IMG/VR virus record: IMGVR_UViG_3300027720_000009
Span: 1-50,558 of that record
Length of the DNA: 50,558 nucleotides
From: a virus
Direction: 5' to 3' (one strand)
The notes beneath the pieces were generated by a model, which did not search any database, was not told the origin of the DNA, and saw only the letters and a list, made by a program, of their open reading frames with translations. Below are positions 7,080-50,558 of the stretch, piece by piece (the stretch's first letter is position 1; each line of letters opens with the position of its first letter). The translations under genes and the position numbers were made by a program.

Positions 7080-7989
7080 TATTTGCTATAATGTTTTGAA
7101 AGTTTTTACCAAAATCAATATTAGAACCTCTATCTTGTCTAACCTCATAAAGAAGTTCATTGAAATTGTCTCTAATTTCGTAAAGGTTATATTGCTTGTA
7201 GATGTTATTATCTTTGTCGTATATAGTATATACTCCATCTTCAATAGACTTTGTTTGATTTCCGTAGAGAGCAATTGCTAGTGTTGAAGCATCATGCTCA
7301 ACTATCTCAACTTCTAATACTGTGGGATTAAAAAAAGTATTTGTTATGACTATTCTTTGAGCGGGTGCCCCAATATATGGGGTCGCGTTTGGCTTATTTG
7401 AGGGTGAAGCCGATGGTGTAAGAGTACAAAAAACTAAATTAGTTACTCCATCAGAGTAACGATATCTAACAGATTTTTGTATAGTATTAGTTAAGTTTTG
7501 TGTAACTGGTTCACAATAAAATGATGATGTTATAATCCTAAAGAAATTTGGAATTTTAGTTCCGTCATCATTCAAATACTCAACTCTAAATCCAACTAAT
7601 CCCTGATTAACAAATTTATTTGTAAACTCACTAGGAACATCCTGTAAGTTTATTATAATCCCTTTTGTATTAGGAGATGAAGATAATACCCCACAATCAT
7701 TAATAACTGTCCTAATCTGAGCAGGTCTCAAATATAATGTATATATACCTAAAGCATTGAACTGGTCTGCGGGTAATCTCAAATTATATAATCCACCCAA
7801 TAACTCATTTGTAGAACCATTACTTATAGTTGAGTTATTAAAATATGGTCTCAAAAATTGTAATGAGTCCAATTTTGTTAAGGTAAAATTTGTGGTTTCG
7901 TCTCTTGATGGAGTATAGTGAAGAATTATTTCAACATCTTCGGGGCTTACATCCGACGGTCTTATAGTTCCATAATTTCCTGTTGCCAA
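7072..7989 (-). CDS. Structural protein of the baseplate block, TTG start
   Basis: A 305-aa protein beginning (M)ATGNYGTIRPSDVSPEDVEI, with the C-terminal half rich in Asp, Asn and Tyr. No enzyme motif is seen. A short Ser/Pro stretch (TPSASPSNKPNATP, about residues 190-205) looks like a linker between two beta-rich halves. The start codon appears to be TTG (7987-7989): an in-frame stop lies five codons upstream (8002-8004) with no ATG or GTG between, and the MATGNYG-type beginning is natural for a phage structural protein. It overlaps the 988-aa gene by 8 bp, implying translational coupling. I do not recognise its family with certainty. Its position suggests a peripheral baseplate component. 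Confidence 0.6.
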   Translation of the reverse strand: MATGNYGTIRPSDVSPEDVEIILHYTPSRDETTNFTLTKLDSLQFLRPYFNNSTISNGSTNELLGGLYNLRLPADQFNALGIYTLYLRPAQIRTVINDCGVLSSSPNTKGIIINLQDVPSEFTNKFVNQGLVGFRVEYLNDDGTKIPNFFRIITSSFYCEPVTQNLTNTIQKSVRYRYSDGVTNLVFCTLTPSASPSNKPNATPYIGAPAQRIVITNTFFNPTVLEVEIVEHDASTLAIALYGNQTKSIEDGVYTIYDKDNNIYKQYNLYEIRDNFNELLYEVRQDRGSNIDFGKNFQNIIANNG

Positions 7990-22555: not shown

Positions 22556-24988
22556 TTATGATGAACAACCAAAACAATCAAATTCACTATTCTCAGGTTT
22601 TGGGGGTAGGTTCATTGATGAATAATCAACCTTTGGTGGCTCTGGCGTTACATTTGGTTTTTTAACCTTTGATATGTCAACCGCCAAGTGTTTTGCCCCC
22701 GTTGAAATTGCCTTTGTTCTAACATAGTAACAAAGTGTCTTCAGTCCTCTTTCCCAACCATAGAAGTGTGATGATGAAATCTTTGACAGGCTTGGATTAC
22801 CCATATAGATATTCATTGATTGAGATTGGTCAATGAAGGGAGCTCTGTCAGCAGCCATTTCAATCAACTCCTTCTGTGAGATTTCCCAAATTGTTTTGTA
22901 TTTTGGGATAAGGTGTTCAATTCTTTTAACTTTCTTATTGTATTGTTTGTCCTCGGGGTCAAGGTAATTGTTAAAGTTAATACCTTGAACTGAACCTTCA
23001 TTAAGAATGATTTCATTCTTTAGGTCTTCACCCCAAATACCAAGCTTCTCAAAGTCATTAATCAAATACTTGTTAACAATCATAATCTCACCACCAACAA
23101 CTCTTCTATTAAAAATTGCTGAGTGAGCGGGTTCTGTCATTTCATATGAACCTGTAATCTTGGCTGATGACGCTACAGGCATTTGAGCGGTGAATAATGA
23201 GTTACAAACACCATAATCTTTAACTTCTTCTTTTAATGAGTTCCAATCCCATCTTCCTGATAACTCATCTTCCTTCAGACCCCACATATCAAATTGGAAT
23301 ACTCCTTCTGACATTGGTGAGCCGTTAAAGAAATCATATGGTTTATATTCTTCTGACTTACATAAACGACAACTTTCAGTGATTGCCGCAAAATAAATTG
23401 TTTCAAAAATATCTTTATTGAGTTTCTTTGCCTCTTCTGATGTGAAGATGTAGTCCATCAAATAGAATACATCGGCAAGACCTTGAGTTCCAATGGCAAT
23501 TGCTCTTTGTTCACGACCACCCTTGTTTCCTTTCTCTGTTGAGTAGTTGTTAATGTCTACAACTTTGTTAAGGGCTCTTACAACTTTACGAGTTTCTTCA
23601 TACAATAACTGGTGATTAAAGACTCCATCTTTAATAAAGTTCTTTAACACCATTGATGATAGTGTGCAAATCGCAGTTGTGTTTTCATCAGTATATTGGT
23701 AAATCTCATTACAAAGATTTGATTGTTTGATTACCCCAATGTTTTGATGATTTGTCTTTTTGTTTGCATTATCCTTCGAACAAAGATATGGAACACCAGT
23801 TTCAATCTGTGACTCGATTATCTTTGACCAAATTTCTTGAGCCTTGGTCTTTTTACCAATTCCAAGAGCAACTGCTTTGTTATAGTTCTCTTCATATTCT
23901 TCACCATAACATTCTTGGAGGGCTTTAATACCCGCTTTCTTAATATCATTTGGACAGAACAAATACCAATCTCCATTAGTCCTAACCGCATTCATAAAGT
24001 TATCAGGAATCCAAAGTGCAGTGAATAAGTCACGTGCTCTTAACTCTTCAGCCCCTGTATTCTTTTTAATTTCCAAAAGGTCAAAAATATCTTTATGCCA
24101 AGGTTCCAAGTAAATTGCTGCCGAACCTGGTCTGCGTCCTTGTTGGTTAAAAAATCTAAGTGATTCATTAACAATTTTCAAATACTTCAAAAGTCCTCCA
24201 GCGAATCCGCCTGATGATGTAATACGACTTTCTTTACTTCTGATATTTGACATAGAAAGACCAATACCCGCAGCGTCCGATGAATATGTTGAAATATCTC
24301 TCATAGTATTCAAAAGTCCTTCTCTTGAATCTGAATCATTAAAGTGAAGAACACAAGACGCAAGTTGTGGAACTTTTGTACCGGAATTAATCATAATTGG
24401 TGTTGCCGGTGAAATAAGTTGACTTGAGAGTGACTTATAGTATTCAACCGCTTGTTCAAATGATTTGGTTACCCATATTGCAACACGCATATACATATGT
24501 TGTGGTCTTTCAATTGTCTTACCACTTGGTAGTTTCAAAAGATACATCTCTTGTAACGACCTCCAAGCAAAGTAGTCAAAGTTATAATCATTATCGTGAT
24601 TAATCACCTCATCAATGTTTGATGGACCGTAATTGTTAATCATATTGATAAACTCCTCACTAACAATTCTTTCTTTGTAAAGTTCCATCATAGTGTTTGA
24701 GAAACTTGGGTTTGTTTCTTTGTGGTATGCTGAAATTGCAACTGAGGATGCAAGTCTTGAATAGTCGTGATGACTACCAGTAAAAGCCGCGGCAATCTCG
24801 TAAATTAACTTATCAAGTTCCTTTGTAGTAATCTCACCTTCAGTTGGGACTGAGGTAATTACTTTAATAAAAATTTCATCAGAATTAATGTTTAAACCTT
24901 TGGCTGCTTTTTTAATTCTATTATATATTTTCTGTGGGTTGAAAGACGCATCTTCCCCACTACGTTTTTTAATTTTTAGTGACATCAT
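22556..24988 (-). CDS. nrdA: Ribonucleoside-diphosphate reductase, alpha subunit (class I)
   Basis: An 810-aa large subunit that reduces ribonucleoside diphosphates to deoxyribonucleotides for phage DNA synthesis. Residues about 2-90 form an ATP-cone (KIKKRSGEDASFNPQKIYNR), indicating allosteric control by ATP/dATP. Active-site features are present: the redox Cys in ASCVLHF (about 211), the N-C-E radical set in NLCNEIY (about 424), the second redox Cys in ICTLSS (about 438), the YY pair in LCYYVRT (about 752) and a C-terminal CFGC thiol pair. No intein or split is seen. It is 19 bp downstream of nrdB; the nrdB-nrdA order and single strand imply one operon. The sequence style is the eukaryote/Bacteroidota-like group. 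Confidence 0.95.
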   Translation of the reverse strand: MMSLKIKKRSGEDASFNPQKIYNRIKKAAKGLNINSDEIFIKVITSVPTEGEITTKELDKLIYEIAAAFTGSHHDYSRLASSVAISAYHKETNPSFSNTMMELYKERIVSEEFINMINNYGPSNIDEVINHDNDYNFDYFAWRSLQEMYLLKLPSGKTIERPQHMYMRVAIWVTKSFEQAVEYYKSLSSQLISPATPIMINSGTKVPQLASCVLHFNDSDSREGLLNTMRDISTYSSDAAGIGLSMSNIRSKESRITSSGGFAGGLLKYLKIVNESLRFFNQQGRRPGSAAIYLEPWHKDIFDLLEIKKNTGAEELRARDLFTALWIPDNFMNAVRTNGDWYLFCPNDIKKAGIKALQECYGEEYEENYNKAVALGIGKKTKAQEIWSKIIESQIETGVPYLCSKDNANKKTNHQNIGVIKQSNLCNEIYQYTDENTTAICTLSSMVLKNFIKDGVFNHQLLYEETRKVVRALNKVVDINNYSTEKGNKGGREQRAIAIGTQGLADVFYLMDYIFTSEEAKKLNKDIFETIYFAAITESCRLCKSEEYKPYDFFNGSPMSEGVFQFDMWGLKEDELSGRWDWNSLKEEVKDYGVCNSLFTAQMPVASSAKITGSYEMTEPAHSAIFNRRVVGGEIMIVNKYLINDFEKLGIWGEDLKNEIILNEGSVQGINFNNYLDPEDKQYNKKVKRIEHLIPKYKTIWEISQKELIEMAADRAPFIDQSQSMNIYMGNPSLSKISSSHFYGWERGLKTLCYYVRTKAISTGAKHLAVDISKVKKPNVTPEPPKVDYSSMNLPPKPENSEFDCFGCSS

Positions 24989-25007
24989 AGTATTATAAAA
25001 TAATCAA

Positions 25008-25955
25008 TTAAAAGTCATCCGTAAAGGACAATGTTTCGTTCAACTTTGCCTTTTGATACTCAACAGTCCTTGACTCAAAGAAATTACCTTTTGTTTCAAC
25101 TGCGATTTGTTCCATAAATTTAAATGGTTGCTCAACATTAAAATGTTTTTTACATCCAAATTTAACAAGAAGTCCGTCAACAACAAACTCAAGATATTGT
25201 TTCATAAGATTTGAGTTCATACCAATAAGTGATACTGGAAGTGATTCTGTAATAAACTCTTTTTCAATCTCAAGAGCCGACAACAAAATCTCTTTGATTC
25301 TCTTTTCACTTGGTTTGTTTTCGCAGTGATTGTTTACAAGATGAATTGCAAAGTCACAGTGAAGATTTTCATCTTTAAAGATAAGTGAATTTGCGTTACA
25401 CAAACCTTGCATGATACCTCTTGACTTCATCCAAAAGATTGAACAGAATGAACCTGAGAAGAAAATTCCCTCCACAGCGGCAAATGCCACAAGTCTTTCT
25501 TGAAAGGATGCGTTTGTAATCCAATCAAGAGCCCACTTGGCTTTCTTTTGAACTGCCGGAAGTCTATCAATTGCGTGGAAACATTCATCTTTCTCATTTG
25601 GATTTGACACATATGTATCAATCAAAAGTGAATACATTAGACTATGGATATTCTCCATCGCTAGTTGCATTCCGTAAAAGAATTTTGCTTCGGGATATTG
25701 TACTTCTCGGTAGAAATTTTCAGCCAAGTTTTCGTTAACAATTCCATCTGATGCCGCAAAAAACGACAATACATTTTTAATAAAGTATTGTTCATTCTCT
25801 GATAGGTTCTCCCAATCACGAATGTCACCCGATAAATCCACCTCTTCTGCCGTCCAAAATGCGGCTTGGTGCATTTTATAATATTCCCATATGTCGTTGT
25901 GTTCAATTGGGAATATAACGAAACGATTTGGATTTTCTACCAATATTTTTTCCAT
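25008..25955 (-). CDS. nrdB: Ribonucleoside-diphosphate reductase, beta subunit (class I)
   Basis: A 315-aa radical-generating subunit partnering NrdA. By alignment from memory with mammalian R2, all metal ligands are present with correct spacing: Asp70 in AASDG, Glu101 and His104 in AMENIH, Glu162 in [11 protein letters not shown], and Glu196 and His199 in DENLHCDF. The radical Tyr is at 108 (MYSLLIDTY). The C-terminus LSFTDDF fits the R2 tail that docks on the large subunit. The closeness to eukaryotic-type R2 ([25 protein letters not shown]) contrasts with the Escherichia coli type and fits a Bacteroidota source. The start is an ATG with an AT-rich leader and no Shine-Dalgarno motif. Confidence 0.95.
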
Positions 25956-25980
25956 AATAAATGCTATTGTTTTATAATAA

Positions 25981-27351
25981 TTATACTGATTGTTGTTTCT
26001 TTCTGTCTAAAATTTCACGAATTCTATCTCTATTTTTTTGTTCTTTGTTTTCTTCAAAACCTAACATCGTCATAGAACTTTCTGTATCAATTACAAGTAG
26101 TTCATTATCAAATTTGCAGTTTTCAAAGATTACCCCGTCTTTACCGATACGTGATTTTGTGATGGCAATTGTTGCAAGTTTGAGTTCTTTCTGTTGTAAT
26201 GTTTTAGCCACTGATATAATAACGTGACCTACTTGAGCTTTCTTGATAGAACCACCCATTTGGTCTGTAGTTACAACTTCAGATGAAATTGAACTTCTAT
26301 TACCTTGTGTTGCCGTCCAACCTGCAATGTTTAATTCGTGACACATAGCCTCAAATGCTCTCATTACTGAACCCTCACTTTTCCATTCATCATCCATCAT
26401 CTTCTCAGGTGTAACACAATCAATGTAGTCCAAGATAATAACATCAAGTTTAATTCCATCGGCAATCATCTTTCTTAGTTGATTCTTAATTTGACTCATA
26501 GTCAAAGTATCTGATGGAAGTTTTTTAAGAATAAGTCTGTTTTTCATCTTATCTTGAACTTCGGTTACTTTCTTCATAACCTCTTCTTTGTGGTCACCAA
26601 GAAGGTCAGGTGCTATTCCAGTCCAAAGGGTGAAGTGTTTTCTTTGGATAATCTTTGGGTTGTCCTCAAAGAATATCTGTAACACATTGAATCCCATATT
26701 GAAGGCGTGGTTTGCAATCTTTGTGGTCAAACTTGTCTTACCTACTCCTGTCGGTGCAAGTATTACTCCGATTTCGCCTTTTGCAAGACCGCCTTTCAAT
26801 AGGTTATCAATACCTGGAATTCCCATTGGAATTGGATGTCGGTAATCTTCTTGGAGAACTTGGTCCAAGTTTTCAAAAACATCACCTGTATCTTTCTCTA
26901 TGACACCCACTTGAAGAGCCTCTCTTACCATCTCTTCAAGGGTGTCATAGTTCTCAAACTCACCTCCGTCAATAATCTTTTGAGCCTTTCCCATCACCTT
27001 CTGAAGCTCTTGTTGCTTACAGAATTTGAGAGCCTTTTCTTGAACAAAAAGTGACCCTTCTTCGGATACATTTTTAATTTCATTAATTGTATCCAAAGTG
27101 ATTTTTAACATCAGCTCTTGGGTAATCTCTGACTTGATAATTTGATGTAATGTGTCATAGGTGGGGGCACAATCAAACTTTTTGTAGTATTCTTTAATCA
27201 TCTGTATGATGATTTTGTAATACTTGTTTTCAAAGTAATTTGCCTCAAGCACATCCAATATAGAGTGAGAAAAGTTCTTATCAATTATTATCTGATTGAT
27301 AAGTTGTTGTTGGAAGGTACCTCCTAAGTAGTCAAAATTTTTGTCAGCCAT
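25981..27351 (-). CDS. Replicative DNA helicase, T4 gp41/DnaB-like
   Basis: A 456-aa hexameric-type helicase. The N-terminal domain (about 1-150) resembles DnaB/gp41 ([20 protein letters not shown], then [18 protein letters not shown]). The RecA-like motor has a Walker A motif in [10 protein letters not shown] (about 199-208), a Walker B-like stretch [10 protein letters not shown] and the later sensor region TATQGNR. It unwinds the replication fork. It lies in a run of replication genes (SSB, UvsX, RNase H/FEN, helicase) followed by the reductase genes. No primase domain is fused, so a separate primase is expected elsewhere. A 7-bp inverted repeat (27353-27359/27378-27384) spans the short gap before the start. 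Confidence 0.92.
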
Positions 27352-27375
27352 TCTAGTCTTTTTTATTAAATATTA

Positions 27376-27831
27376 TTAGACTAGTGAGTATCCCATCAAA
27401 TCGTAAGTTAAATTTTTAGAAGAAAATACTTCGGTCAAATTAGACAAGACCCCTTTAAGATATGGGCGAATATCCACAGTATATCTCACTTTTGGGGGGT
27501 AAGGTTTAGCATCAAAAGTGTAGTGGTACATAATATTACCATTGTATTTTAGATACAAATTAAACACCTCAGGTCCATCTGTGAAAGACGTTTCAAGAAC
27601 CTCGGGGTTTTCCATAATTTCATATTGGTTGTCAGACATATATGAAACACTCTTCATCTTTAGATGTTGTTTCATATTACCAACGAATCCGTCCAACAAT
27701 TCCAAAAGCTCCACTGAATTTTTGGCTCTTGGGTTGTAGTCCTTCACGTTAAAATAACGTTGTACAATAAAGTTGTCATTCACAGTCATCAAAAACTCCA
27801 ACTTTGTTAAATCTGCATTTTGCTCTTTCAT
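27376..27831 (-). CDS. Hypothetical protein between nuclease and helicase genes
   Basis: A 151-aa soluble protein beginning MKEQNADLTKLEFLMTVNDN. It is mixed alpha/beta with no signal peptide, no membrane segment and no known motif. Near the C-terminus is KPYPPKVRYTVDIRPYLKGV. The gene sits 8 bp after the FEN nuclease gene and 24 bp before the helicase gene, so a replication accessory role is possible but only inferred from context. I do not recognise the family. Confidence 0.6.
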   Translation of the reverse strand: MKEQNADLTKLEFLMTVNDNFIVQRYFNVKDYNPRAKNSVELLELLDGFVGNMKQHLKMKSVSYMSDNQYEIMENPEVLETSFTDGPEVFNLYLKYNGNIMYHYTFDAKPYPPKVRYTVDIRPYLKGVLSNLTEVFSSKNLTYDLMGYSLV

Positions 27832-27839
27832 AAAGAATT

Positions 27840-28841
27840 TTACTTTGTTTTTTTACTTTTTTCTTTTCTTGTTAACTTTAAAAATGGTGTGATAAAATAT
27901 GTCCATGCGTCTTCCGTTTTTGGTAGAAACTTAAAAATCCCATCATCCACCATAAACTTGATTAGATTTTTATAACTCCTACCGTCTGTATCCAAGTTCT
28001 CTGAAAATATAAGTTTTACTTGTTCAATTGATTCTTCATTCAAAAGAGGGTTAGACAAGTCCACAATCTTCTCATTAATCTCATAATACTCTTTTTCAAA
28101 TATACCTGATTTTGTCTTACCAGTCAAAATATTTTTTAAAGTTTGGTTATCTTTTTGTTCTTTCAACAATAGTTCAGCCTTTTCAAGAATTTCTTGGTAG
28201 GTAACTTTTCTTTCCAAAACTTCAGGAAAAAATTTAACGAGTGTCTTTTCTCCAAGAGATTGAATCCCTTGTATATTATCTGACTTATCACCCATCATAA
28301 TCTTCAATGTTAGGACATTTTCGTGTGGAAATTCAAAATCATTAAACTTGATTTTGTCTCCATTTTCATATGTTGTTCTAAGTGAAGGTGAATAAAGTGA
28401 AACTTTTTCAGAGATGAGCTGAGTCAAATCTTTGTCAGAAGAGAATATTAGTTTCTTTTCATTCTCAGATATTCTGCAATACTCAGCCATAAGGTCATCA
28501 GCTTCAATTCCTTGGACTTCAATTTGTCGGACATACATTTCCTCCAAGTATTGTTTAACTCTGTTTTTTTGGTATAGATATGACAAATAAATCGGTTCTT
28601 CAAAAGATAGTTTTCTATTCTGTTTGTAACTTGGATATAAAATTTCTCTTTTTGACCTTGAGTCTTCTCCGTCCCAAAACACAATTACCTTATCAAAATT
28701 GTGCTCGTCAATAAATTTTCTAAGAGTATTAATAAAGTGAAAAAGACCCCCAATATGGTTTCCATTGTGGAAATAATCTTTCACGCCATGGAAACCAATT
28801 TTAAATAGGTTATTACCGTCAATAAGGAGAGTCTTTTTCAC
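27840..28841 (-). CDS. RNase H / 5'-3' flap exonuclease (T4 Rnh-like)
   Basis: A 333-aa FEN/PIN-type nuclease that removes RNA primers and trims flaps on lagging-strand fragments. Metal-binding acidic motifs are in order: LLIDGNNLF (Asp8), VIVFWDGEDSRSKRE, GIEADDLMAEY, FSSDKDLTQL, and MGDKSDNIQGIQSLGEKT, the last resembling the helix-hairpin-helix that grips DNA. Its length is close to T4 RNase H (305 aa). The start codon is GTG (28839-28841) and no ATG gives a better beginning. The lysine-rich C-terminus (KEKSKKTK) may contact DNA or SSB. It is 18 bp downstream of the UvsX gene. Confidence 0.92.
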   Translation of the reverse strand: MKKTLLIDGNNLFKIGFHGVKDYFHNGNHIGGLFHFINTLRKFIDEHNFDKVIVFWDGEDSRSKREILYPSYKQNRKLSFEEPIYLSYLYQKNRVKQYLEEMYVRQIEVQGIEADDLMAEYCRISENEKKLIFSSDKDLTQLISEKVSLYSPSLRTTYENGDKIKFNDFEFPHENVLTLKIMMGDKSDNIQGIQSLGEKTLVKFFPEVLERKVTYQEILEKAELLLKEQKDNQTLKNILTGKTKSGIFEKEYYEINEKIVDLSNPLLNEESIEQVKLIFSENLDTDGRSYKNLIKFMVDDGIFKFLPKTEDAWTYFITPFLKLTRKEKSKKTK

Positions 28842-28859
28842 AGATACAAAGATAATTGA

Positions 28860-29849
28860 TTACTCTTCGTTTTCAACTACTTCTTCAGATTCATCAAGAA
28901 TAATTTCACCAGTTCCTGAAAGTATCGCATTCCAGTACTGAGAATATTCTTTTTTGTAATTTTCAAGTGCGTCTTTATCATCTGCAATGTATCCCTGTGG
29001 AGTTGCGATGATTTTTCCGTCTTTGTATCCAAGACCATTAATGTGGTTCTTTAGTACAGAGATTTTAGTACGGATAGCGTAAGATACAGTTCGTCCATTT
29101 TTGGTTGCTGTAATATGATTAATACCAGCATTTTTCTGATTACCAAATAGAAATACAAGTGCCGATGCCAGCCATAGTGCTTCTCCACCCTTTGCTTTGA
29201 TAGTTGGTTGTCCAAATGGATTATCTGGAAGTTCCACCCAAGGTTGATTAACAACTATAAGTGTGTTAATGTATGGATAGTCTTCTTTACGCGACTTTGT
29301 AATACGAGCCTGAATTCCCATACCAATTTTATCAGCAAGTACCGAAGCATTGTGTTGTTTACCACCTTTACCATCAAATGTCATTTTGCAAGGAACTGAG
29401 CCAACTGAATCCCAAAGGAAACAAAGTGAATAAGGAATATTACCTTTTTCTTGTTCATCAAGTAATTCATTAATATAATCAGTTACTTGTTCAATGTAAT
29501 CAAAGTTATCATTGAAGATGAACTGTCCGTCCCACTCTCCATCTGACATTTGTGCTTGTAATCCAAGTTCTACAGCGTGGTCCCAACTCCATTTTTTCTC
29601 CGTAATAATGAAAACGGGTAAATGTCCTTTCTTTTGAGCCGAAACCGCCGCTTTAATAAGCGCTGTGGTTTTGGAAGAATTTGAGTGCCCCAAGAACATA
29701 TTGATGTTGCCCAAAGCAGGACCAGGTAAACCGCAACTGTTATGGAAAGCGTCACCGACTTCATAAAACTCAGTTTCCTTATATTTGGTTTTTGTGGAGT
29801 ACTTGTCCTTAATTGCATCTAACGAAAATTCTTTTTTCTTTAATGCCAT
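28860..29849 (-). CDS. uvsX: Recombinase UvsX (RecA-like)
   Basis: A 329-aa RecA/UvsX-family strand-exchange protein used in recombination-dependent replication and repair. The Walker A motif is GHSNSSKT (residues 54-61), preceded by LPGPALGNINMFLG and followed by IITEKKWSWDHAVELGL. The Walker B region is in SLCFLWDSVGSVP. NTLIVVNQPWVELP and KAKGGEALWLASALVFLFG are typical of UvsX. The tail (DESEEVVENEE) is acidic. It lies next to the SSB and nuclease genes, as in other T4-like replication clusters. It is clearly a phage UvsX rather than cellular RecA. Confidence 0.93.
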   Translation of the reverse strand: MALKKKEFSLDAIKDKYSTKTKYKETEFYEVGDAFHNSCGLPGPALGNINMFLGHSNSSKTTALIKAAVSAQKKGHLPVFIITEKKWSWDHAVELGLQAQMSDGEWDGQFIFNDNFDYIEQVTDYINELLDEQEKGNIPYSLCFLWDSVGSVPCKMTFDGKGGKQHNASVLADKIGMGIQARITKSRKEDYPYINTLIVVNQPWVELPDNPFGQPTIKAKGGEALWLASALVFLFGNQKNAGINHITATKNGRTVSYAIRTKISVLKNHINGLGYKDGKIIATPQGYIADDKDALENYKKEYSQYWNAILSGTGEIILDESEEVVENEE

Positions 29850-29851
29850 AA

Positions 29852-30076
29852 TTAGTTGTATTTTACAATTTGTTGTAACGCTTCGCTTTTATCTTTCGCG
29901 TTTGCATATTTTTCAACCATTTTATCCATTTCTTCCAAGTGTTGTGGGTGTTCACCAATTCCAACTGGATTATTAAAATAGACCAAAAGAGTTGCTTCTG
30001 CCTCACTCATTTCGGAAGCATATTTGCTCATAAGAGCATCATAAAGTTTTTTTGAGATTTTTTCTTGAGTTGTCAT
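29852..30076 (-). CDS. Small conserved protein between SSB and UvsX
   Basis: A 74-aa, mainly helical protein. It contains VYFNNPVGIGEHPQHLEEMD, a motif I recall in small uncharacterised proteins of many T4-like phages and pelagic phages. It probably forms two or three helices with a conserved GIGEHP turn. It stops 2 bp before the UvsX start and begins 12 bp downstream of the SSB terminator region, so a link to replication or recombination is plausible by context only. No function is known to me. Confidence 0.6.
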   Translation of the reverse strand: MTTQEKISKKLYDALMSKYASEMSEAEATLLVYFNNPVGIGEHPQHLEEMDKMVEKYANAKDKSEALQQIVKYN

Positions 30077-30087
30077 TTTTTAAAGGT

Positions 30088-30122
30088 ATTAAAAACCACC
30101 CCATATTTCAGGGGTAGTTTGA
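30088..30122 (-). terminator. Rho-independent terminator after SSB gene
   Basis: On the plus strand, AAACCACCCC (30093-30102) and GGGGTAGTTT (30111-30120) make a 10-bp stem with one mismatch and an 8-nt loop. On the minus strand it is followed by a T-run (GGTTTTTAATACC). It lies directly after the SSB stop, so it could raise SSB output relative to the UvsX-helicase genes downstream. Confidence 0.7.
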
Positions 30123-30140
30123 TTAATATTTTTTTTTAAA

Positions 30141-30974
30141 TTAGAAGGGTAGGTCACCGTCAGGTTCGTCTCCGGCTTGTGGGTCAGAAATTGTTCCACC
30201 CATAGTCATTTCGCCAGATTCGTCACCGTAAACATACTTACCAAGTTCAGAAGACCAACGTGGAGTTTCACCACGAGCAATTGCTTCCAAGTATTCTACA
30301 GGCTTTTTAGAATAAACATCTTTCCAAGTGAGTTCATCTTTAACCCAAGAATCCATAGTTTCTTTGTCTTCGTGAAGTGGAGCCGGGTCATCATACATAA
30401 CAGTTTGGATAACTGTATACTCAATACCTTTTGGAGTCTTTGCCTTTGTAAGTTCCAAAATCAAGTCACGTCCTTTTTCAGGGTCAGTAATATCTCCTTT
30501 GGCTCTCCAAATCGGAATGATTTTGTCAAGAATACCTTCGTTCTTGTAGTTGTGCTTAAAACGCCAGAACTTTACTCCGTCCTCGGGTGCGTCTTTGTCA
30601 ATAACTTTAACGATGTAGAATTTACGAGCTTTGTACTGTTTTGCAAGTTCTTTATCAGAAGCTTTGCCAGTCATCATAAGTTCGTCATGAATTTCGTTCA
30701 AAGGTGAACGCTCATTATCATTTTTACCTGGGTCATAGATTTTATTCCACTTTCCCGCAACTTGGACTTCGTGAAACCATACTTCCTTAAATGGTGATGA
30801 ACCATCTGTTGTCGGAAGGACTCGGAGTCTCTTCTGTCCTGTTGATTTTCCTTGTGGGAGAATTGCCGCGAAGTACTTCTTCATTCGGTCTTCTTGTGAA
30901 ATTTTACTTCCACCTGTGTTTGATTTCGCTTTTTCATACTGAGCGAGAACAGCATCTAAAGAATTTGTCGCCAT
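30141..30974 (-). CDS. Single-stranded DNA-binding protein, T4 gp32-like
   Basis: A 277-aa protein that coats single-stranded DNA and organises replication and recombination partners. The N-terminus is helical and basic (YEKAKSNTGG...QEDRMKKYFA). The OB-fold core includes KRLRVLPTTDGSSPFKEVWF and KFWRFKHNYKNEG. The C-terminus ends in the classic acidic tip DEPDGDLPF that recruits partner proteins. The protein contains no Cys, so the zinc knuckle of T4 gp32 is absent. It is followed by a good terminator and precedes the small conserved gene and UvsX. A 70-bp AT-rich leader before the ATG probably holds its promoter, which I cannot define. Confidence 0.85.
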   Translation of the reverse strand: MATNSLDAVLAQYEKAKSNTGGSKISQEDRMKKYFAAILPQGKSTGQKRLRVLPTTDGSSPFKEVWFHEVQVAGKWNKIYDPGKNDNERSPLNEIHDELMMTGKASDKELAKQYKARKFYIVKVIDKDAPEDGVKFWRFKHNYKNEGILDKIIPIWRAKGDITDPEKGRDLILELTKAKTPKGIEYTVIQTVMYDDPAPLHEDKETMDSWVKDELTWKDVYSKKPVEYLEAIARGETPRWSSELGKYVYGDESGEMTMGGTISDPQAGDEPDGDLPF

Positions 30975-43411: not shown

Positions 43412-46384
43412 TTAGACGTTAACACCAACCCCAGTGTTTACGTTGGATTGTACTCCTGAGGGTCTGGCTGGTGAAGTGTTATTTATACCGTAGCTAGCCA
43501 TTCCACCAAAAAGTTTATTTCCAAAATCTTGAATATATGGAGTGCTTTTGAATTTATTTTCGAATTCTGAAAGTGCGTCTTTTGACAACCTGTCAGCACC
43601 CTCAAATTTTATTACGGTTTCAAATCTTAATGGTTTTCCACCATCCACAGTTAATGATGAATTAAAGTTTGTATTAAAATTACCTGAAGAAAACAACTCG
43701 GATTTATTATTTTCCATAACTCTATTAAGTAAATCATTTTCTTTTTTTGGTTGGTATACAGCTGTAAGTGGTTGATTTTGGGGTGTTTGATATTCTTTAG
43801 AAGAAAAAAGTTCCGTGTATTTTTCTCTATCTCTTAGTAATTCATTTTTTTCTGATAGAAATCTTAATTCGTTGTTTTTTTCAAATGAATTTATTGTGTT
43901 ATTTCCTACTTCCCCTTTAAATGAATCAATATTTTTATATTGTATTTGAGAGTTTGGAAATAATGTATTACTTTCAAATTTTGTACCTCCATAATTATTA
44001 ATCGCATAATCTTTAAAATTTTGGTCAAATTTTAAAAAATTATCACTTGCGTTTGACACAGCATCCCCAAATTTTGTAAATTGCGATTCTACTTTAGTTG
44101 GGCTATACATACGATTATCACTTGCGTTTAACACAGCATCCCCAAATTTTGTAAATTGCGATTCTACTTTAGTTGGGCTATACATACGATTATCAAAAGC
44201 GGTTGTGCTGTTTTCCACACCTCCTATAACATCACCAACCTGTCCAACAGTAGGTCCTTGGTTAAATGTATTAGTAGTTGTATTCGTATTTTGATTCATG
44301 TTCGTCACATAACTTGTTAAATTTTCTGATGTTTCATAGAAATTTTGTATTGCAGTTGTTAAACTCTGAGCATAATCATTCATGACTGTAGAATTTGTAA
44401 CCATCGCAACCGTCTCGGTCATGAAGCCATCTGTGGCGGTTTTAAGAGTTTCTGAACTCATTAAAAGATTATTTGTTGCTGTTGTTAAATTATCAATATC
44501 GGTATTTAAATTTGATATTCCAACGCCTAAATCGGCGGTTTGTTGGTTTAGGTTTTGTATACTTGTATTGGTTTGTGTATTCAAATTTTGACTAAACAAA
44601 TTTTGAGACTGATTTAAATTTTGAATATTTGTATTACTTTGTGTATTTTGATTTGTTGAGTTCTGACTGAATAAATTTTGAACTTGATTCATTAAACCAG
44701 GTGCTAAGTTTTGTAAATTTTGTAAATCTATACCTTGATTTTTTAAGAAATCTTGAAAGTCATTAAGAGGTTCAAAATCAGTAGGTATTTGTTTTCCTAC
44801 CTCTTTAATTGTATCTTTAAACGCGCTCCCTCCTGCTTGAAGTACATTTAAAAGGGCTTCACGTATAGCGGGCCCTATTTTTAAGTAATCCCCTTCTTTA
44901 AAGGCATCTGCGGCTTCTTTTAAATTTTTTGATGATTCATCGATATTTTTGTCAAACTCGCTACCTGGCCCTAAACTATTAACAATAACCTCACTTGCTT
45001 TACTTGCCCCAATTTGGTTAACTCTCATGAGTTCTTGACCAAGTCCACTTGCCATTGAAAATGCGGGTGATTTCATGGCAGCTTCATTGGCCTTGTACAT
45101 ATCGGTCAACATGTCTAATTGTTGTTGAGCGATTGATAACATTTTTTCTTCCGCAGTTTTACCCTCTTCTCCTTGAGCTTCCATCAAAGCTTCCTTAAGT
45201 TGAGTGGGATTGTCTTTGTAAGCATCTAATAATTCAGTAACAGACTGCTCTACAAGTTGTCCACTAGCATCTTTTGTAGTTATTTTATACTCTCCTCCTT
45301 CTCCAAGTTCAGACAAATTTGCAACAAGTTCTTTTGTTTCGTCATCAAGACCATAACCTGCAAAAGAAATTTCAGACATTTTTTTGTCTAAATCTGCCGC
45401 CCCTAAAGCAAATTTTTCAAGTTGGTCCAACGGAATACCCATTGCCTCTTCTAAAGCTTTAAGGTCTTTTCTTGCCGATGGCATTATTCTAAAACTTTGT
45501 GATTGTTTGTCAAAGTAGGTATAAGTTTTTAACATTTTACCCAATTCTTCATTTAACTCAGGAACATTGTTTTGAGCCAAATCCATAAGTCTTAAAGGGT
45601 CAACTAATGATGAAGAAGTAACACCAAGTCTTTGTAAGGCAGCCGCGGTTTCAATAGCTGACTCAGGAGATAATACTTTATCGGCAAATTTAAATACATC
45701 GGCCATATTAGTTCTTAAAGCCGAAGATTTAGCCGCCATTTCAGCCAGTCCCTCAATACCATTTTCAAACCCTAATCTATTAAGTTGTTGTAAATTTTCA
45801 ACAACCGCTTTTGACACTATTTTGCTACTAACACCTAACCTATTTGCGGTGTCAATAACTTTAATCATCTCATTATCAATTTGATATATAGATGTTCCAA
45901 TGTCTTTAAATCCTTTTTGTAGTACCGGTAATTCTATTCCTGTTGCTCTAGTTGTGGCATAAAATTCTGTCATCCTTTCACTTGTCAACAACACATTACG
46001 ACCCATTGAATCTAAAGTGTTAAGTTGAGTGTTTAAGGCGTCTGTTTCTGTACCTCCCAAACGAATAATGTCAATTGCCGCTTCCGAAAATTCTTGCTTA
46101 ATCTCAGTGGCGAGATTAGCCCCCATTCCCATTTTATTGACCATTTTCTGAAACGATTGGTCCAAAATTACAGAAGCGGACTCAACGTTTCTCATAAGTT
46201 GGTCTAAACCACCAGTAGTAAAAGGATTTTGTTGTTGCAGAGCATTAATACCTTCTCTTGCAATTTTAAAATTGAAGAAATTTGTTTGTCCGGATTGATT
46301 AAACGAAGCCTTACTTAGTGATTGTGCAAACTGCACTCCTGCGTCTTCTACCGCATCATCTTTATCATTGAAATACATACTCAT
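43412..46384 (-). CDS. Tape measure protein
   Basis: A 990-aa protein placed directly after the chaperone. Residues 1-430 are mostly helical (for example AIDIIRLGGTETDALNTQLN and MTEFYATTRATGIELPVLQK), typical of tape measure proteins, which set tail length and pass through the tube. Residues about 560-720 are rich in Asn, Gln and Thr, with short repeats such as NLFSQN and IQNLNQ. Residues about 731-781 are a near-perfect duplication of a 25-residue unit. The C-terminus (NINNTSPARPSG..) is Gly/Asn-rich. At about 0.15 nm per residue, a length of 990 aa would give a tail near 150 nm, longer than T4; this is an estimate. A second in-frame ATG is the third codon. Confidence 0.82.
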   Translation of the reverse strand: MSMYFNDKDDAVEDAGVQFAQSLSKASFNQSGQTNFFNFKIAREGINALQQQNPFTTGGLDQLMRNVESASVILDQSFQKMVNKMGMGANLATEIKQEFSEAAIDIIRLGGTETDALNTQLNTLDSMGRNVLLTSERMTEFYATTRATGIELPVLQKGFKDIGTSIYQIDNEMIKVIDTANRLGVSSKIVSKAVVENLQQLNRLGFENGIEGLAEMAAKSSALRTNMADVFKFADKVLSPESAIETAAALQRLGVTSSSLVDPLRLMDLAQNNVPELNEELGKMLKTYTYFDKQSQSFRIMPSARKDLKALEEAMGIPLDQLEKFALGAADLDKKMSEISFAGYGLDDETKELVANLSELGEGGEYKITTKDASGQLVEQSVTELLDAYKDNPTQLKEALMEAQGEEGKTAEEKMLSIAQQQLDMLTDMYKANEAAMKSPAFSMASGLGQELMRVNQIGASKASEVIVNSLGPGSEFDKNIDESSKNLKEAADAFKEGDYLKIGPAIREALLNVLQAGGSAFKDTIKEVGKQIPTDFEPLNDFQDFLKNQGIDLQNLQNLAPGLMNQVQNLFSQNSTNQNTQSNTNIQNLNQSQNLFSQNLNTQTNTSIQNLNQQTADLGVGISNLNTDIDNLTTATNNLLMSSETLKTATDGFMTETVAMVTNSTVMNDYAQSLTTAIQNFYETSENLTSYVTNMNQNTNTTTNTFNQGPTVGQVGDVIGGVENSTTAFDNRMYSPTKVESQFTKFGDAVLNASDNRMYSPTKVESQFTKFGDAVSNASDNFLKFDQNFKDYAINNYGGTKFESNTLFPNSQIQYKNIDSFKGEVGNNTINSFEKNNELRFLSEKNELLRDREKYTELFSSKEYQTPQNQPLTAVYQPKKENDLLNRVMENNKSELFSSGNFNTNFNSSLTVDGGKPLRFETVIKFEGADRLSKDALSEFENKFKSTPYIQDFGNKLFGGMASYGINNTSPARPSGVQSNVNTGVGVNV
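44041..44190. repeat. 75-bp tandem duplication in tape measure gene
   Basis: Two adjacent 75-bp units (44041-44115 and 44116-44190) differ at only one base (G at 44055, A at 44130). The duplication is 25 codons long, so the frame is preserved, and it encodes the repeated block containing DNRMYSPTKVESQFTKFGDA. The single change swaps Leu for Ser. Near-identity at the DNA level points to a recent event or ongoing homogenisation. Confidence 0.9.
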
Positions 46385-46404: not shown

Positions 46405-46560
46405 TCAATTTTTAGGAGTATTATATTCAATAATTTTCTCTACCAAATATCTTCTTTGGAAGATTGGCATTTTTAAAAAATCTGAATAGGAAGTGTGTAT
46501 AAATTTTCCTAAAAGATAATATTGATTTAAAAGACCTTCGATGTAATTAGAAGAAAGGAC
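46405..46560 (-). CDS. Frameshifted C-terminal extension of tail assembly chaperone
   Basis: In the 162-bp gap between the chaperone stop and the tape measure start there is an open frame in the +1 (equally -2) register. It encodes a plausible 51-residue folded segment: NYIEGLLNQYYLLGKF, then SYSDFLKMPIFQRRYLVEKI, ending EYNTPKN before TGA at 46405-46407. An in-frame stop lies upstream at about 46594-46596 and there is no usable ATG except an internal Met, so independent initiation is unlikely. A shift at the UUU-UUU-C run (46561-46567) would fuse it after Phe246 of the 250-aa protein, giving about 297 residues. Tail chaperones between tube and tape measure genes are commonly made in short and frameshifted forms (lambda gpG/gpGT; +1 or -2 in other phages). 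No experiment supports it here. Confidence 0.6.
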   Translation of the reverse strand, partial: VLSSNYIEGLLNQYYLLGKFIHTSYSDFLKMPIFQRRYLVEKIIEYNTPKN

Positions 46561-47299
46561 GAAAAAACTCAACCCCAAAGGTAATCTTCGCGTTTACCTT
46601 TTTTCCTGACGGGGCTGTAATTTCTCTATCTAAGTTTAGTCTTGGTTCGTTTTTCCTCAAGAAATTTGCAATATATTTTGAATCCATTATTGGCATAGTA
46701 TTAATAAACTTCATAATTTCTTCTTTAGAAGGATTGTTGTTTACTTCAACCAATTGTTTTTGTAATCTCCATGTTACTTTGGGGGCGACTAATCCCTGTG
46801 GATAATCTTCAGCACTTCTTTCGATTTCCAAAACATCTCCGTAAGATAAGGGTCTTAATTTAACCTCAACTCCTGATTTTGGTAGTTGTGTTGTAAAGTA
46901 TCCATTGTCGTCCGGTTCAACTTCTGGTTTTCTAAAATTAAGTTCGTCTAAATATACAGTCTTTTCAAAGGTATTACCTGTTTCAGGGTCAACTAACTTA
47001 AATGTGTAGTCGTGTCCAAAACTAGTGTTTCTTAAAAACAACAATACTGCTTCAACATCACCTTCTAATAATTCAGAAGGATTTAAATCAGGTTCATATA
47101 ATTTTTCTCTGATTAATCTTAAAATTAAAGTTTCGGCTGGTATTTTACCAATATTAGCCAATAAATTTTCGTCATTAGCTGTCAGATATCCAACCTTAAC
47201 ACTTTTTTTCTTACTTTTATAATATTTTCCCTGACTAGGTAATAAAACCACATCATGTGGTAGTGAAAAATTTTCTTGACCCGCAATTTGTTCGTTCAT
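46547..47299 (-). CDS. Tail assembly chaperone / gp26-like baseplate protein
   Basis: A 250-aa protein with the pattern DVVLLPSQGKYY, then VKVGYLTANDENLLAN. This LPS.G..Y...V.V...TA.eE..L style is seen in T4 gp26-like and tail assembly chaperone families. Two short beta segments follow (YTFKLVDPETGNTFEKTVYL and VEVKLRPLSYGDVLEIERSA), and the C-terminal half is helical. Its place between tube and tape measure genes is the classic chaperone position. The last codons are GAG TTT TTT CGT CCT TTC TTC TAA, and a downstream frame appears to extend the protein (see the extension entry). The T4 name gp26 is by resemblance only; a chaperone role is the better contextual reading. Confidence 0.6.
   Translation of the reverse strand: MNEQIAGQENFSLPHDVVLLPSQGKYYKSKKKSVKVGYLTANDENLLANIGKIPAETLILRLIREKLYEPDLNPSELLEGDVEAVLLFLRNTSFGHDYTFKLVDPETGNTFEKTVYLDELNFRKPEVEPDDNGYFTTQLPKSGVEVKLRPLSYGDVLEIERSAEDYPQGLVAPKVTWRLQKQLVEVNNNPSKEEIMKFINTMPIMDSKYIANFLRKNEPRLNLDREITAPSGKKVNAKITFGVEFFRPFF
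46561..46570 (-). promoter_or_regulatory. Candidate +1/-2 ribosomal frameshift site
   Basis: The coding strand reads GAG TTT TTT CGT four codons before the chaperone stop. A Phe-tRNA paired with UUU can re-pair perfectly with UUC after a +1 slip, entering the open downstream frame; a -2 slip on the U-run reaches the same frame. The site overlaps no other functional motif I can see. Confidence 0.5.
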
Positions 47300-47370: not shown

Positions 47371-47859
47371 TTAGTAAACAAGTACGCAATAATCAGGACG
47401 TAATCCACAAGTAATATTAGCAAGTCCATCTTCACCGTATCCTAATGAACCAAAGTCAGCCTTTGTTAGGAATGCTCCAACCATAATCCATTTTTCCACA
47501 ACAACACCAGTTGGGTCTAAAAGTTGTAAAGTTACGTCTTTTTTGTATCCCGCAGCGTAACCCATACGACCTGTAACAGATTCTGCGTGTAAACGAACCC
47601 ATTCCATAAGAGCCTGAGCCGCTGAAGGTCCAATAGGGTCACGGAATGTAACACTAATTTCACCCCATTCATAAGTGGCGGCAACATATTTCTTAGTGTT
47701 TAAGAAAGGTATTTCAGTAGTTTTAATTGTGATTGCTGGTCTTGCAGTCGATTCTACATACCATTCATTAATTCCAAGTTCGCTTGGGAAACTAAGTATA
47801 AACCTATTTTTCTTTTTGGGTTCGTACGGTACGGGCATTTTCATCAGTAAATCAGCCAT
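47371..47859 (-). CDS. Tail tube protein, T4 gp19-like
   Basis: A 162-aa protein (T4 gp19 is 163 aa), the subunit of the inner tail tube through which DNA passes. The beginning MADLLMKMPVPYEPKKKNRF and the core FILSFPSELGINEWYVEST, then EWGEISVTFRDPIGPSAAQA, fit the gp19-like family, with MEWVRLHAESVTGRMGYAAG and DPTGVVVEKWIMVGAF further on. It lies near the sheath gene with terminators before and after, as expected for a highly expressed gene. The 124-bp leader contains two copies of TATTTATA on the coding strand (47902-47909 and 47976-47983) and no Shine-Dalgarno motif. Confidence 0.9.
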   Translation of the reverse strand: MADLLMKMPVPYEPKKKNRFILSFPSELGINEWYVESTARPAITIKTTEIPFLNTKKYVAATYEWGEISVTFRDPIGPSAAQALMEWVRLHAESVTGRMGYAAGYKKDVTLQLLDPTGVVVEKWIMVGAFLTKADFGSLGYGEDGLANITCGLRPDYCVLVY

Positions 47860-47983: not shown

Positions 47984-48805
47984 TTACCCATTATATTTTT
48001 TTCTTTCTCCTCCATGTGTAGATATAAATTGAATTATATTTTCTGGTCTATTTGATAATTTTTTATGTGTAAATTCTAGATTCTTTTTATCATCATCTGA
48101 AAAGAATATTTTTGGTACAAATCTGTTAGATATTTTATTTTTAAGAAATCCCTGTTTGTGTAGGTGTCCCGAAATATATTTAACATAATTTTCAAACTCC
48201 TTTAAAGCCTCTAACTTTCCCTTTTCGGGACTATTCGCACTTCCTGAGCCAAATGTTACCGGATAATATCTATTCATATCCATATAAGTTTCGATAAGTT
48301 GTTCGTCTGACATATCTTCTTCACCTGCAATATCTCTAAACTTTCTGAGGTTCCTAACTAAATCTCTTTTTGAGATACCTTTAAAATCAAGTTCAATCAT
48401 GTTTTCGATAGATTGTCTAATAACAAGTGGGGAATGTCCTCTTGCGGTTACTATTGAGAAAATAGACCCGTTATTTATGGCGTCCTTAAACGTGTCCCAC
48501 TCAGGACCAGGTTTACCCAAAAGAGAGTCAATAATAAATCTCTTATCTCCTTTAGTAGAAAAGTGTCTGTACGGGTCTGGAGCATATCCAGTAATAGTCT
48601 TACCTTTATAATCAAATTCTTCTTTACCTACTTGATGTCTGTGTTCGGCAAAATCCTCGGTAGACATTCCAATTTCCTCACCATTACTATCTAACAGTAT
48701 AATTTGTGTTGGCATAGTCATTATATTATCGTCCCAATCAAATGCATAATACTGAATATCGGGAGTCATTTCCTCTTTAAATTCTTCAACTAAGATAACT
48801 TTCAT
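47984..48805 (-). CDS. HAD-family hydrolase inside tail cluster
   Basis: A 273-aa predicted phosphatase or nucleotidase of the haloacid dehalogenase superfamily. Motif I is AFDWDDNIM (Asp23 and Asp25 as nucleophile and acid), motif II is SIVTARG (about 117-123), a Lys-containing helix EKGKLEALKEF (about 193-203) supplies motif III, and motif IV is KIFFSDDDKKN (about 230-240). All catalytic elements are present, so it should be active. The substrate is unknown. The region after motif I (LLDSNGEEIGMSTEDFAEHR) is a cap-like insert. It is flanked by the sheath terminator upstream and by the tube gene downstream, a strange place for a metabolic enzyme. Related proteins occur in other large phages, but I know of no defined role in tail assembly. 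Confidence 0.75.
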   Translation of the reverse strand: MKVILVEEFKEEMTPDIQYYAFDWDDNIMTMPTQIILLDSNGEEIGMSTEDFAEHRHQVGKEEFDYKGKTITGYAPDPYRHFSTKGDKRFIIDSLLGKPGPEWDTFKDAINNGSIFSIVTARGHSPLVIRQSIENMIELDFKGISKRDLVRNLRKFRDIAGEEDMSDEQLIETYMDMNRYYPVTFGSGSANSPEKGKLEALKEFENYVKYISGHLHKQGFLKNKISNRFVPKIFFSDDDKKNLEFTHKKLSNRPENIIQFISTHGGERKKYNG

Positions 48806-48873: not shown

Positions 48874-50558
48874 TTAAATATTTTCGAAACTTGCACCTTG
48901 TGGAGTAATTACAAACTCGATGTCGATGAATTCAAGAGCCTTAGTTGGTTTCAAGAATACTCTACCTGACATTTGGTTTGAATCAAGTTCTTCAGGTGAA
49001 CTGTTAACTGTTACACGGAAGTCGTAGATACCTCTGTCTCTTCTGATTGCGTCTAAGATTGGGTTTACCGAATCCAAGAACTGTTGTCTTACAACCGCAT
49101 CATTTTGTTCAAATAACAATCTGATAGCAACTGCAGAGATAAGTTTACGAGCTTGTAACAACAATCTCCTAACGTTAACCCTATCCAAAGGACTCTCCTT
49201 AATCTGTAGAGTTTTATTACCCCAAATTACAGTACCAACGTCATTGAAAGTTGCAATTGGGTTAATTCTACCTTGATAAAGAGTATCTCTATCTAACTGA
49301 GTGAGTCTACGTCTTGCTCTTACAGAATTAACAAGACCTCTTGTGTAACCCGCAGTTGCAAACCATGGGAAAGAGATATTATCTGTAAGTGCCAAGTTAC
49401 GACAAACTTCAGCAGTTGGTGGGATATAGATTTGTGTGTTGGTTACACTATCTCTAGTTAGAACCCATGGATAGTACGTTGCAGTGTAGTTAGAATCAAT
49501 ATCCTGACCAGATAAATCATCAACCGCATCTTGGGGGTAAATGAAGTTATCCATAGAAGTTGATGGTTGATACAAATCAAAGTCTGGAGTTGTCATAATG
49601 TAGATAGAATCCGCTCTGTCAATCTCAACCATATCAATTGCTGCTCTAACAAGTTGGTAGTTGTTTGTTGCATCAATACCAGGAGTTGCTAAAACGTTAA
49701 TGTTAATAATTGCCGGGTTATTAAATGTGTTAATACCTAACTTATATGCGTAGAAGTCTGTGTTTGCCCAGTTTGCGGTATCATCCTCAATTGTAATTTG
49801 TTTAAATGCTCCCCATCCTGTAGCATTTGTGTAAGGTTGGCAATCTTCTAATGCCCCATAAAGGAAACCAGACCTACCTAAGATATAGTCATCACTATAA
49901 GTTCTGAATTCACGGTAAATATCCCATCCATCAAAACCACCATAAGCCAATAAAGTAAACTTACGAGAATAAGTTCTATAATAAGCATTATTTGAGTCAG
50001 TCGGGTCTGATGTAAATGAAGTAATACCACATTCAAACATAGGTGTACCAGAGTTTGAGTAAGCTGAAGGAATTGTTACAGTTGTTGCTCCGCTATCCAT
50101 GTGGAAACCTTTAGTTAGATAACTCCAATTTTCATAAGTTGTTTCAGTACAAGTCCATCCAGTTGGAGTTTGTTTACCTTTATACTCAAAGAAGTTAGGG
50201 TCCCAACCAATAGTTGACCCAAACCCTAAGTAAGCTCTACGAATATTTTCACCTGAACTGATTGTTGAATTGTCAGCCCCAGAGCTTCTTCCAAATGGAG
50301 GATTATACAATTCTTCACCAGGGTAATCATACTTTGTTTTGTAGATTGGGAATGGAGATTTAGAACTACCATATGTTCTAATTAAGTAACCCTCGAATCC
50401 GCAAGGTAATGCGTCAACAGGAGCATCAGGATTTAATTCAAGCATTATGTACTTAGAATTAATTTGATACTCACCATCCGAAGTACCTACTTTAGTACCT
50501 ACGAAATTATTTTGAGAGGGGTCCATCGAACAATTTGTATATTTCTCAATCACAACAG
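48874..50558 (-). CDS. Tail sheath protein, T4 gp18-like (5' end outside window)
   Basis: The contractile sheath subunit. At least 561 codons are present and the frame is still open at the right edge. The first possible start inside the window is a GTG at 50553, preceded by further sense codons, so the true N-terminus lies outside. The C-terminal 200 residues show the conserved sheath domain: YPWVLTRDSVTNTQIYIPPT, then EVCRNLALTDNISFPWFATA, then KTLQIKESPLDRVNVRRLLL and QARKLISAVAIRLLFEQND, ending with SGRVFLKPTKALEFIDIEFV. That C-terminal region makes the subunit-exchange strands in other sheaths. A strong terminator follows 24 bp after the stop. Sheath, tube, chaperone and tape measure follow in the usual order, with a HAD gene inserted. 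Confidence 0.92.
   Translation of the reverse strand, partial: VVIEKYTNCSMDPSQNNFVGTKVGTSDGEYQINSKYIMLELNPDAPVDALPCGFEGYLIRTYGSSKSPFPIYKTKYDYPGEELYNPPFGRSSGADNSTISSGENIRRAYLGFGSTIGWDPNFFEYKGKQTPTGWTCTETTYENWSYLTKGFHMDSGATTVTIPSAYSNSGTPMFECGITSFTSDPTDSNNAYYRTYSRKFTLLAYGGFDGWDIYREFRTYSDDYILGRSGFLYGALEDCQPYTNATGWGAFKQITIEDDTANWANTDFYAYKLGINTFNNPAIININVLATPGIDATNNYQLVRAAIDMVEIDRADSIYIMTTPDFDLYQPSTSMDNFIYPQDAVDDLSGQDIDSNYTATYYPWVLTRDSVTNTQIYIPPTAEVCRNLALTDNISFPWFATAGYTRGLVNSVRARRRLTQLDRDTLYQGRINPIATFNDVGTVIWGNKTLQIKESPLDRVNVRRLLLQARKLISAVAIRLLFEQNDAVVRQQFLDSVNPILDAIRRDRGIYDFRVTVNSSPEELDSNQMSGRVFLKPTKALEFIDIEFVITPQGASFENI

Follow-up and report, generated by a model that had tools for sequence, protein, structure and literature searches.

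Gene order and the gp26-type chaperone

The window, by which we mean the whole 50,558-nt stretch of viral DNA that was analyzed, carries on its minus strand a run of genes in the order tail sheath, a 273-aa protein, tail tube, a 250-aa protein, a 162-bp gap and a tape measure candidate. The sheath protein (48874..50556, minus strand; 560 aa, open at the window end) matches phrog_23 with an E-value of 1.1e-46, and the tube protein (47371..47859, minus strand; 162 aa), encoded directly upstream of the 250-aa gene, matches phrog_4542 with an E-value of 1.2e-24. The 273-aa protein between sheath and tube (47984..48805, minus strand) is without a family match, and its start, YAFDWDDNIM, is reminiscent of HAD-type DxD motifs. 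The 990-aa tape measure candidate (43412..46384, minus strand), directly downstream of the 250-aa gene, had no match of its own in family and phrog profile searches and is assigned by position, size and synteny: annotated tape measure genes of immuto, SP-15 and LIS04 are syntenic with it, and the order of tube, gp26-type gene and tape measure recurs in the same three phages. It also contains a near-perfect tandem repeat, DNRMYSPTKVESQFTKFGDAV(L/S)NAS. Between the blocks of structural genes, at 22556-30974, lie genes for a ribonucleotide reductase large subunit, a DnaB-like helicase, a 5'-3' exonuclease, a RecA-like protein and a gp32-like protein. No tRNA genes were found in the window, and scanning genome contigs for a host yielded a single distant relative, in a bacterial bin.

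The 250-aa protein (46547..47299, minus strand, with its TAA stop at 46549-46547) matches PF12322 (T4_baseplate) with 43.8 bits against a cut-off of 24.5, which places it in the T4 gp26 family, and also matches the baseplate hub family phrog_150. A profile of the gp26-like proteins matches gp26 of KVP40, cyanophages and Atu_ph07 with a probability of 99, and the profile of the latter matches T4 gp26 in turn. A search of the PDB by sequence gave no match. We modeled the gp26-type part and the extension described below as two separate parts with AF2; for the gp26-type part (pLDDT 88), the two best PDB fold matches are chains A and B of the HK97 tail assembly chaperone 2ob9, both weak (probabilities 0.90 and 0.84, E-values 0.17 and 0.25), while matches in BFVD include annotated T4-like hub proteins and chaperones. 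We take this zero-frame product to be the putative short form of a tail assembly chaperone, TAC-N.

A second frame encodes a gp51-type domain

The gp26-like coding sequence ends with GAG TTT TTT CGT CCT TTC TTC TAA, and the +1/-2 frame is open across this stop as far as 46405. The sequence-only reading had proposed a 51-codon open frame in this register in the gap, a UUU-UUU-C run four codons (CGT CCT TTC TTC) before the zero-frame stop, and an extended form of about 297 residues. All three hold: the extension (46405..46560, minus strand) comprises 51 codons (46560-46408) and a stop, and a +1 slip at the second TTT is computed to add these to 246 residues, which gives a predicted 297-aa fusion as the long form, TAC-NC.

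The AF2 model of the extension is a confident three-helix domain (pLDDT 91), with which a fold search gave no useful match. In profile comparison with hhalign, gp51 of KVP40 and cyanophages emerges as a homologue of the extension (E-value 5e-6, probability 86), and 5 of 40 extension members matched phrog_634, the best with an E-value of 0.007. Its link to T4 gp51 appears weak and indirect: the extension has no direct match to that protein, and the profile built from KVP40 and cyanophage gp51 reaches T4 gp51 weakly, at its residues 211-244 (E-value 4e-4, probability 35). In public annotations, the extension is blank in GXN1 and LIS04 and holds a truncated hypothetical gene in immuto and SP-15.

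The second frame is conserved across three clades

Scans of viral contigs and annotated phages yielded 252 gp26-like loci including that of the window (226 distinct genes), which fall into three divergent clades: window-like (92 loci, 83 distinct genes), Mel-JY01-like (71 loci, 64 genes) and immuto-like (89 loci, 79 genes). The +1 frame stays open beyond the gp26 stop in 252 of 252 loci, so that no relative with a closed frame, which the sequence-only reading had named as evidence against its proposal, was found among them. An open frame that recurs at one and the same position throughout three clades is not due to chance; in 4 of the 252 loci the other frame is open at least as far. Two loci end at a contig edge, where the +1 frame is open for at least 28 codons past the stop, and the frame is likewise open past the stop in SP-15, LIS04, GXN1 and LR756508. 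For the three clades, divergence past the stop at codon positions 1, 2 and 3 is 0.19/0.12/0.42, 0.19/0.14/0.42 and 0.20/0.12/0.40, as is typical of translated sequence, and the median dN/dS there is about 0.5, with pairs partly saturated. Comparison thus indicates that the fused frame is conserved.

The same loci delimit where the two frames join. In four window-like loci (L055, L079, L080 and L085), in many Mel-like loci and in L194, 2 nt separate the end of a +1-frame stop from the first Phe codon, while the zero-frame stop follows as little as 15-18 nt after the first Phe codon in some loci, which leaves about 20 nt in which the fusion has to arise. The putative shift site of the window, UUU UUU CGU (46559..46567, minus strand), lies here. 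In the window's clade the codons are TTY TTT CGN in 92 of 92 loci, followed by CCT (or GTT), whereas most Mel-like loci have TTT TTT TGG CCT and most immuto-like loci TTT (TTT/CTT/CTA) TGG CCT.

The earlier reading had suggested comparing synonymous conservation of the slippery site in relatives. Measured against codon usage, no conserved column anywhere in the gene varies less than one of the shift-site Phe codons in any of the three clades, the invariant codon being TTT in 83/83, 64/64 and 79/79 distinct genes. The Arg codon at the site is CGN in 83/83 distinct genes of the window's clade, and the same genes elsewhere use mostly AGR; CGN makes up 73 of the 507 Arg codons in the window. In-frame TTT CGN occurs once among 16,405 window codons (3.3 expected), at the shift site. 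Constraint on CCT and on TTC TTC can be explained in part by dual coding. A downstream stimulatory structure was found in none of the three clades.

An independent start fails as a general explanation

The +1 frame could instead be a small gp51-like gene of its own, with a separate start or coupled to the gp26 stop. Such a model would fit KVP40 and cyanophages, in which gp51 is annotated as an independent gene, and all cyanophage-type loci carry an ATG. It would also fit the jumbo phage LR756511, which shows a third arrangement: its gp51-like domain is in the -1 register, and an ATG overlaps the stop codon of gp26 (TAATGG). For the window, the sequence-only reading had found no ATG at a sensible place; the gap indeed contains no ATG, but that reading had not weighed a +1-frame TTG that precedes the shift site (46576..46578, minus strand), which is the only candidate independent start in the window, could begin a 57-aa ORF, and is present in most members of the clade.

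We rejected this TTG as a general start, because several relatives lack it or have a stop after it: within the window's clade it is replaced by TTC in 8 and by TTA in 1 of 83 genes, and in other loci it is followed by an in-frame stop. Moreover, 24 loci across all three clades have no ATG, GTG or TTG between the last +1 stop and the 20th codon after the site (3 window-like, namely L055, L071 and L085, 12 Mel-like and 9 immuto-like), and an independent start therefore fails as a general explanation. In no case is a start position conserved across loci, and the strongest constraint sits on the shift codons. Other branches, that of LR756511 among them, do seem to use coupled or independent starts, but as an account of the +1 frame a separate gene is very unlikely. 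Fusion by frameshifting, in whichever direction, we regard as highly probable.

The shift is almost certainly in the +1 direction

The register of the extension is +1/-2 in all three clades and is not that of the -1 slippery heptamer class (X XXY YYZ). Re-pairing one base forward is possible at every locus, either by tRNA-Phe from UUU to UUY or by tRNA-Leu on CUU, the latter as in prfB. The six-U run of the window would also permit the ribosome to slip -2, which would give a fusion one residue longer, and the tail chaperone of phage Mu uses a -2 shift (PMC5009743). However, 44 loci carry TTC TTT or TTT CTT/CTA, where -2 re-pairing is impossible and the register is unchanged, and the conserved C of CGN together with the rare A-site codon fits +1 rather than -2. 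We accordingly give slippage by -2 little chance, and the proposal of a programmed +1/-2 shift stands as regards fusion, which the open frame in 252 of 252 loci supports, but is refined to +1. From these comparisons, we infer that the direction is almost certainly +1.

The 6-7 T runs present at most sites could alternatively cause transcriptional slippage, producing mRNAs with altered numbers of U. Runs of this length are regarded as short for polymerase slippage, and the 44 loci with interrupted runs (TTCTTT, TTTCTT, TTTCTA) keep the register, which together make slippage of the polymerase barely credible as the source of the fusion.

In the window's clade, the preferred +1 shift would have a close precedent in the influenza A PA-X site, UCC_UUU_CGU, which shares UUU_CGN, a rare A-site Arg codon and the +1 direction with it (PMC3498833). 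There the +1 product of UUU_CGU is proven by peptides, no -2 peptide was found, and the favored mechanism is slippage in the P site on UUU_C with a rare codon in the A site (PMC3498833). PA-X differs in belonging to a eukaryotic virus and an unrelated gene, in showing no evident upstream hairpin, and in its UCC E-site codon, which is not present here.

A conserved hairpin precedes the site in the window's clade

In the window's clade, the 63 nt preceding the site fold into a stem. In the window this predicted RNA stem-loop (46572..46615, minus strand) pairs 46615-46610 with 46577-46572 and, in an inner stem, 46600-46596 with 46582-46578, and it ends, with its 3' arm, 5 nt upstream of the shift site (46567). 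Across an alignment of 41 sequences, 94.7% of cells are paired, two-sided changes occur in 18 cells compared with 5.0 in shuffles, and the covariation score is 0.271 compared with 0.182 for shuffled and at most 0.105 for slid controls. Codon choice follows the stem. In the 5' arm, GCC encodes Ala in 67 of 68 cases (21% usage) and ACC encodes Thr in 15 of 15 (14% usage), while in the 3' arm GGG encodes Gly in 82 of 83 compared with about 15% usage; the lone exception, L040, changes both sides to GCA/GGT and is thus compensatory. Permuting synonymous codons weakens folding, to a mean of -13.8 +/- 0.3 from -15.8 kcal/mol. All numbers of this kind are inflated by how closely the sequences are related.

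In the loop TCAGGA, the GGA codon for Gly (46604-46606) is nearly invariant (82/83, the exception being L040), for a reason we did not find. Pairing of the hairpin loop (TCAGGAGA) with the region of the stop (TCTTCTGA) as a pseudoknot was rejected by inspection of the alignment, in which TCT/TCA and TGA/TAA variants break the pairing without compensation. A Shine-Dalgarno role for GGGG was also set aside, as 8 nt separate it from the P-site codon and its pairing with CCCC is the better explanation. An Rfam search returned no match.

It is quite possible that the hairpin has nothing to do with frameshifting and instead arises from codon choice or serves as an RNA element of another kind. It lies behind the ribosome and not ahead of it, the stem was not found in the Mel-JY01-like and immuto-like clades, and folding of the window sequence by itself is not significant (z -1.67). 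Such a reading has to contend with the synonymous constraint on GCC and GGG, which includes a compensatory exception, and with covariation that is specific to the register. On this evidence, the upstream hairpin and the A-site CGN codon appear to be part of the signal in the window's clade. A PA-X-type UUU_CGN site combined with a hairpin whose refolding at the mRNA exit, behind the ribosome, pushes the latter one base forward is a tentative model that we put forward with less than moderate confidence. If it is true, the hairpin would be a 5' structural stimulator of +1 frameshifting, undescribed for phage tail chaperones as far as we could check.

A model for the synthesis of two chaperone forms

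Very probably, this one gene gives rise to two forms of a tail assembly chaperone, one short and one long, through programmed +1 frameshifting. The majority of ribosomes would read the gp26-type frame to its stop and release the predicted 250-aa short form. In a minority, the rare CGU codon would cause a pause while tRNA-Phe occupies UUU in the P site, and this tRNA would re-pair one base forward, from UUU (46564-46562) to UUC (46563-46561), with refolding of the hairpin behind the ribosome possibly favoring the forward movement. A shifted ribosome would then read 51 more codons, yielding the 297-aa long form that ends in the gp51-type three-helix domain. By analogy with lambda, we infer that the gp26 part could act on the tape measure protein and the gp51 domain could recruit the tube protein.

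Relation to other tail assembly chaperones

Lambda makes its short and long chaperones, gpG and gpGT, from a single mRNA whose frameshift lies close to the 3' end and ahead of the tape measure gene (PMC5009743), and the arrangement proposed here is similar. The lambda shift is -1, whereas that in the window's lineage is very probably +1, and the likeness between the two systems is one of arrangement. Shifts of -1, -2 and +1 are all on record for tail chaperones, and a +1 shift is predicted for that of HSTV-2, a haloarchaeal myovirus unrelated to this phage (PMC5009743). A 2016 review describes G-T frameshifting as a conserved feature of long-tailed phages, the exception being T4 (PMC5009743), in which gp26 and gp51 are classed as hub assembly chaperones (PMC3004832).

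The loci analyzed here share with the T4-like gp26/gp51 pairs the PF12322 family, the gp51-type C-terminal domain and the position before the tape measure gene. Vladimirov, Gautam and Davidson (2022, Virology 566:9-15) reportedly identified the tail assembly chaperones of T4-like phages, with gp26 as TAC-N, together with gp51. Since the extension is a gp51 domain, the pair is one already recognized in T4-like phages, and the sequence-only suggestion that the gp26-type protein works like lambda gpG/gpGT, though supported by comparison, does not give gp26 a new role. The signals described for T4-like phages in the sources consulted are poly-T -1 sites (PMC12846349) or two separate genes, as in T4, and some of these phages have a short gene and a fused long gene (PMC10885494); here the signal is a predicted +1 site at UUU-CGN.

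KVP40 and the cyanophages have a homologous gp26-gp51 pair in the same order, with gp26 ending in FF and the gp51 frame open across the stop as in the window, but they carry a T TTT TTC heptamer, the -1 register and an available ATG. All 80 cyanophage-type loci carry T TTT TTC, and in 78 of the 80 the -1 frame is open. In all of KVP40, the cyanophages and Atu_ph07 (L023-L026, L267-L346), gp26 ends in T TTT TTC N just before the stop, and the gp51 frame is open at -1 in nearly all; these are sister lineages of the +1 group with a canonical -1 heptamer. T4 itself seems to encode the two forms as two genes, a reading for which the profile support on gp51 is weak, and at T4 positions 5803-7229 gp51 resembles a paralogue of gp26 that carries the C-terminal domain as an in-frame fusion.

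Frameshifted tail chaperones are known, and what is new here, as far as we could check, is the putative +1 UUU_CGN variant in this lineage and its hairpin. It provides a candidate bacterial example of the influenza-type UUU_CGN +1 signal, with a candidate upstream stimulator. It also allows the annotation of large phages to be corrected where the gp51-type domain is missing or called as a separate hypothetical gene. More broadly, these comparisons indicate that the gp26/gp51 family reaches two forms in at least three ways, by a -1 shift in cyanophages and KVP40, by a +1 shift here and by two genes in T4, and such natural variants would allow asking why the ratio of the two forms, and their fusion, matter.
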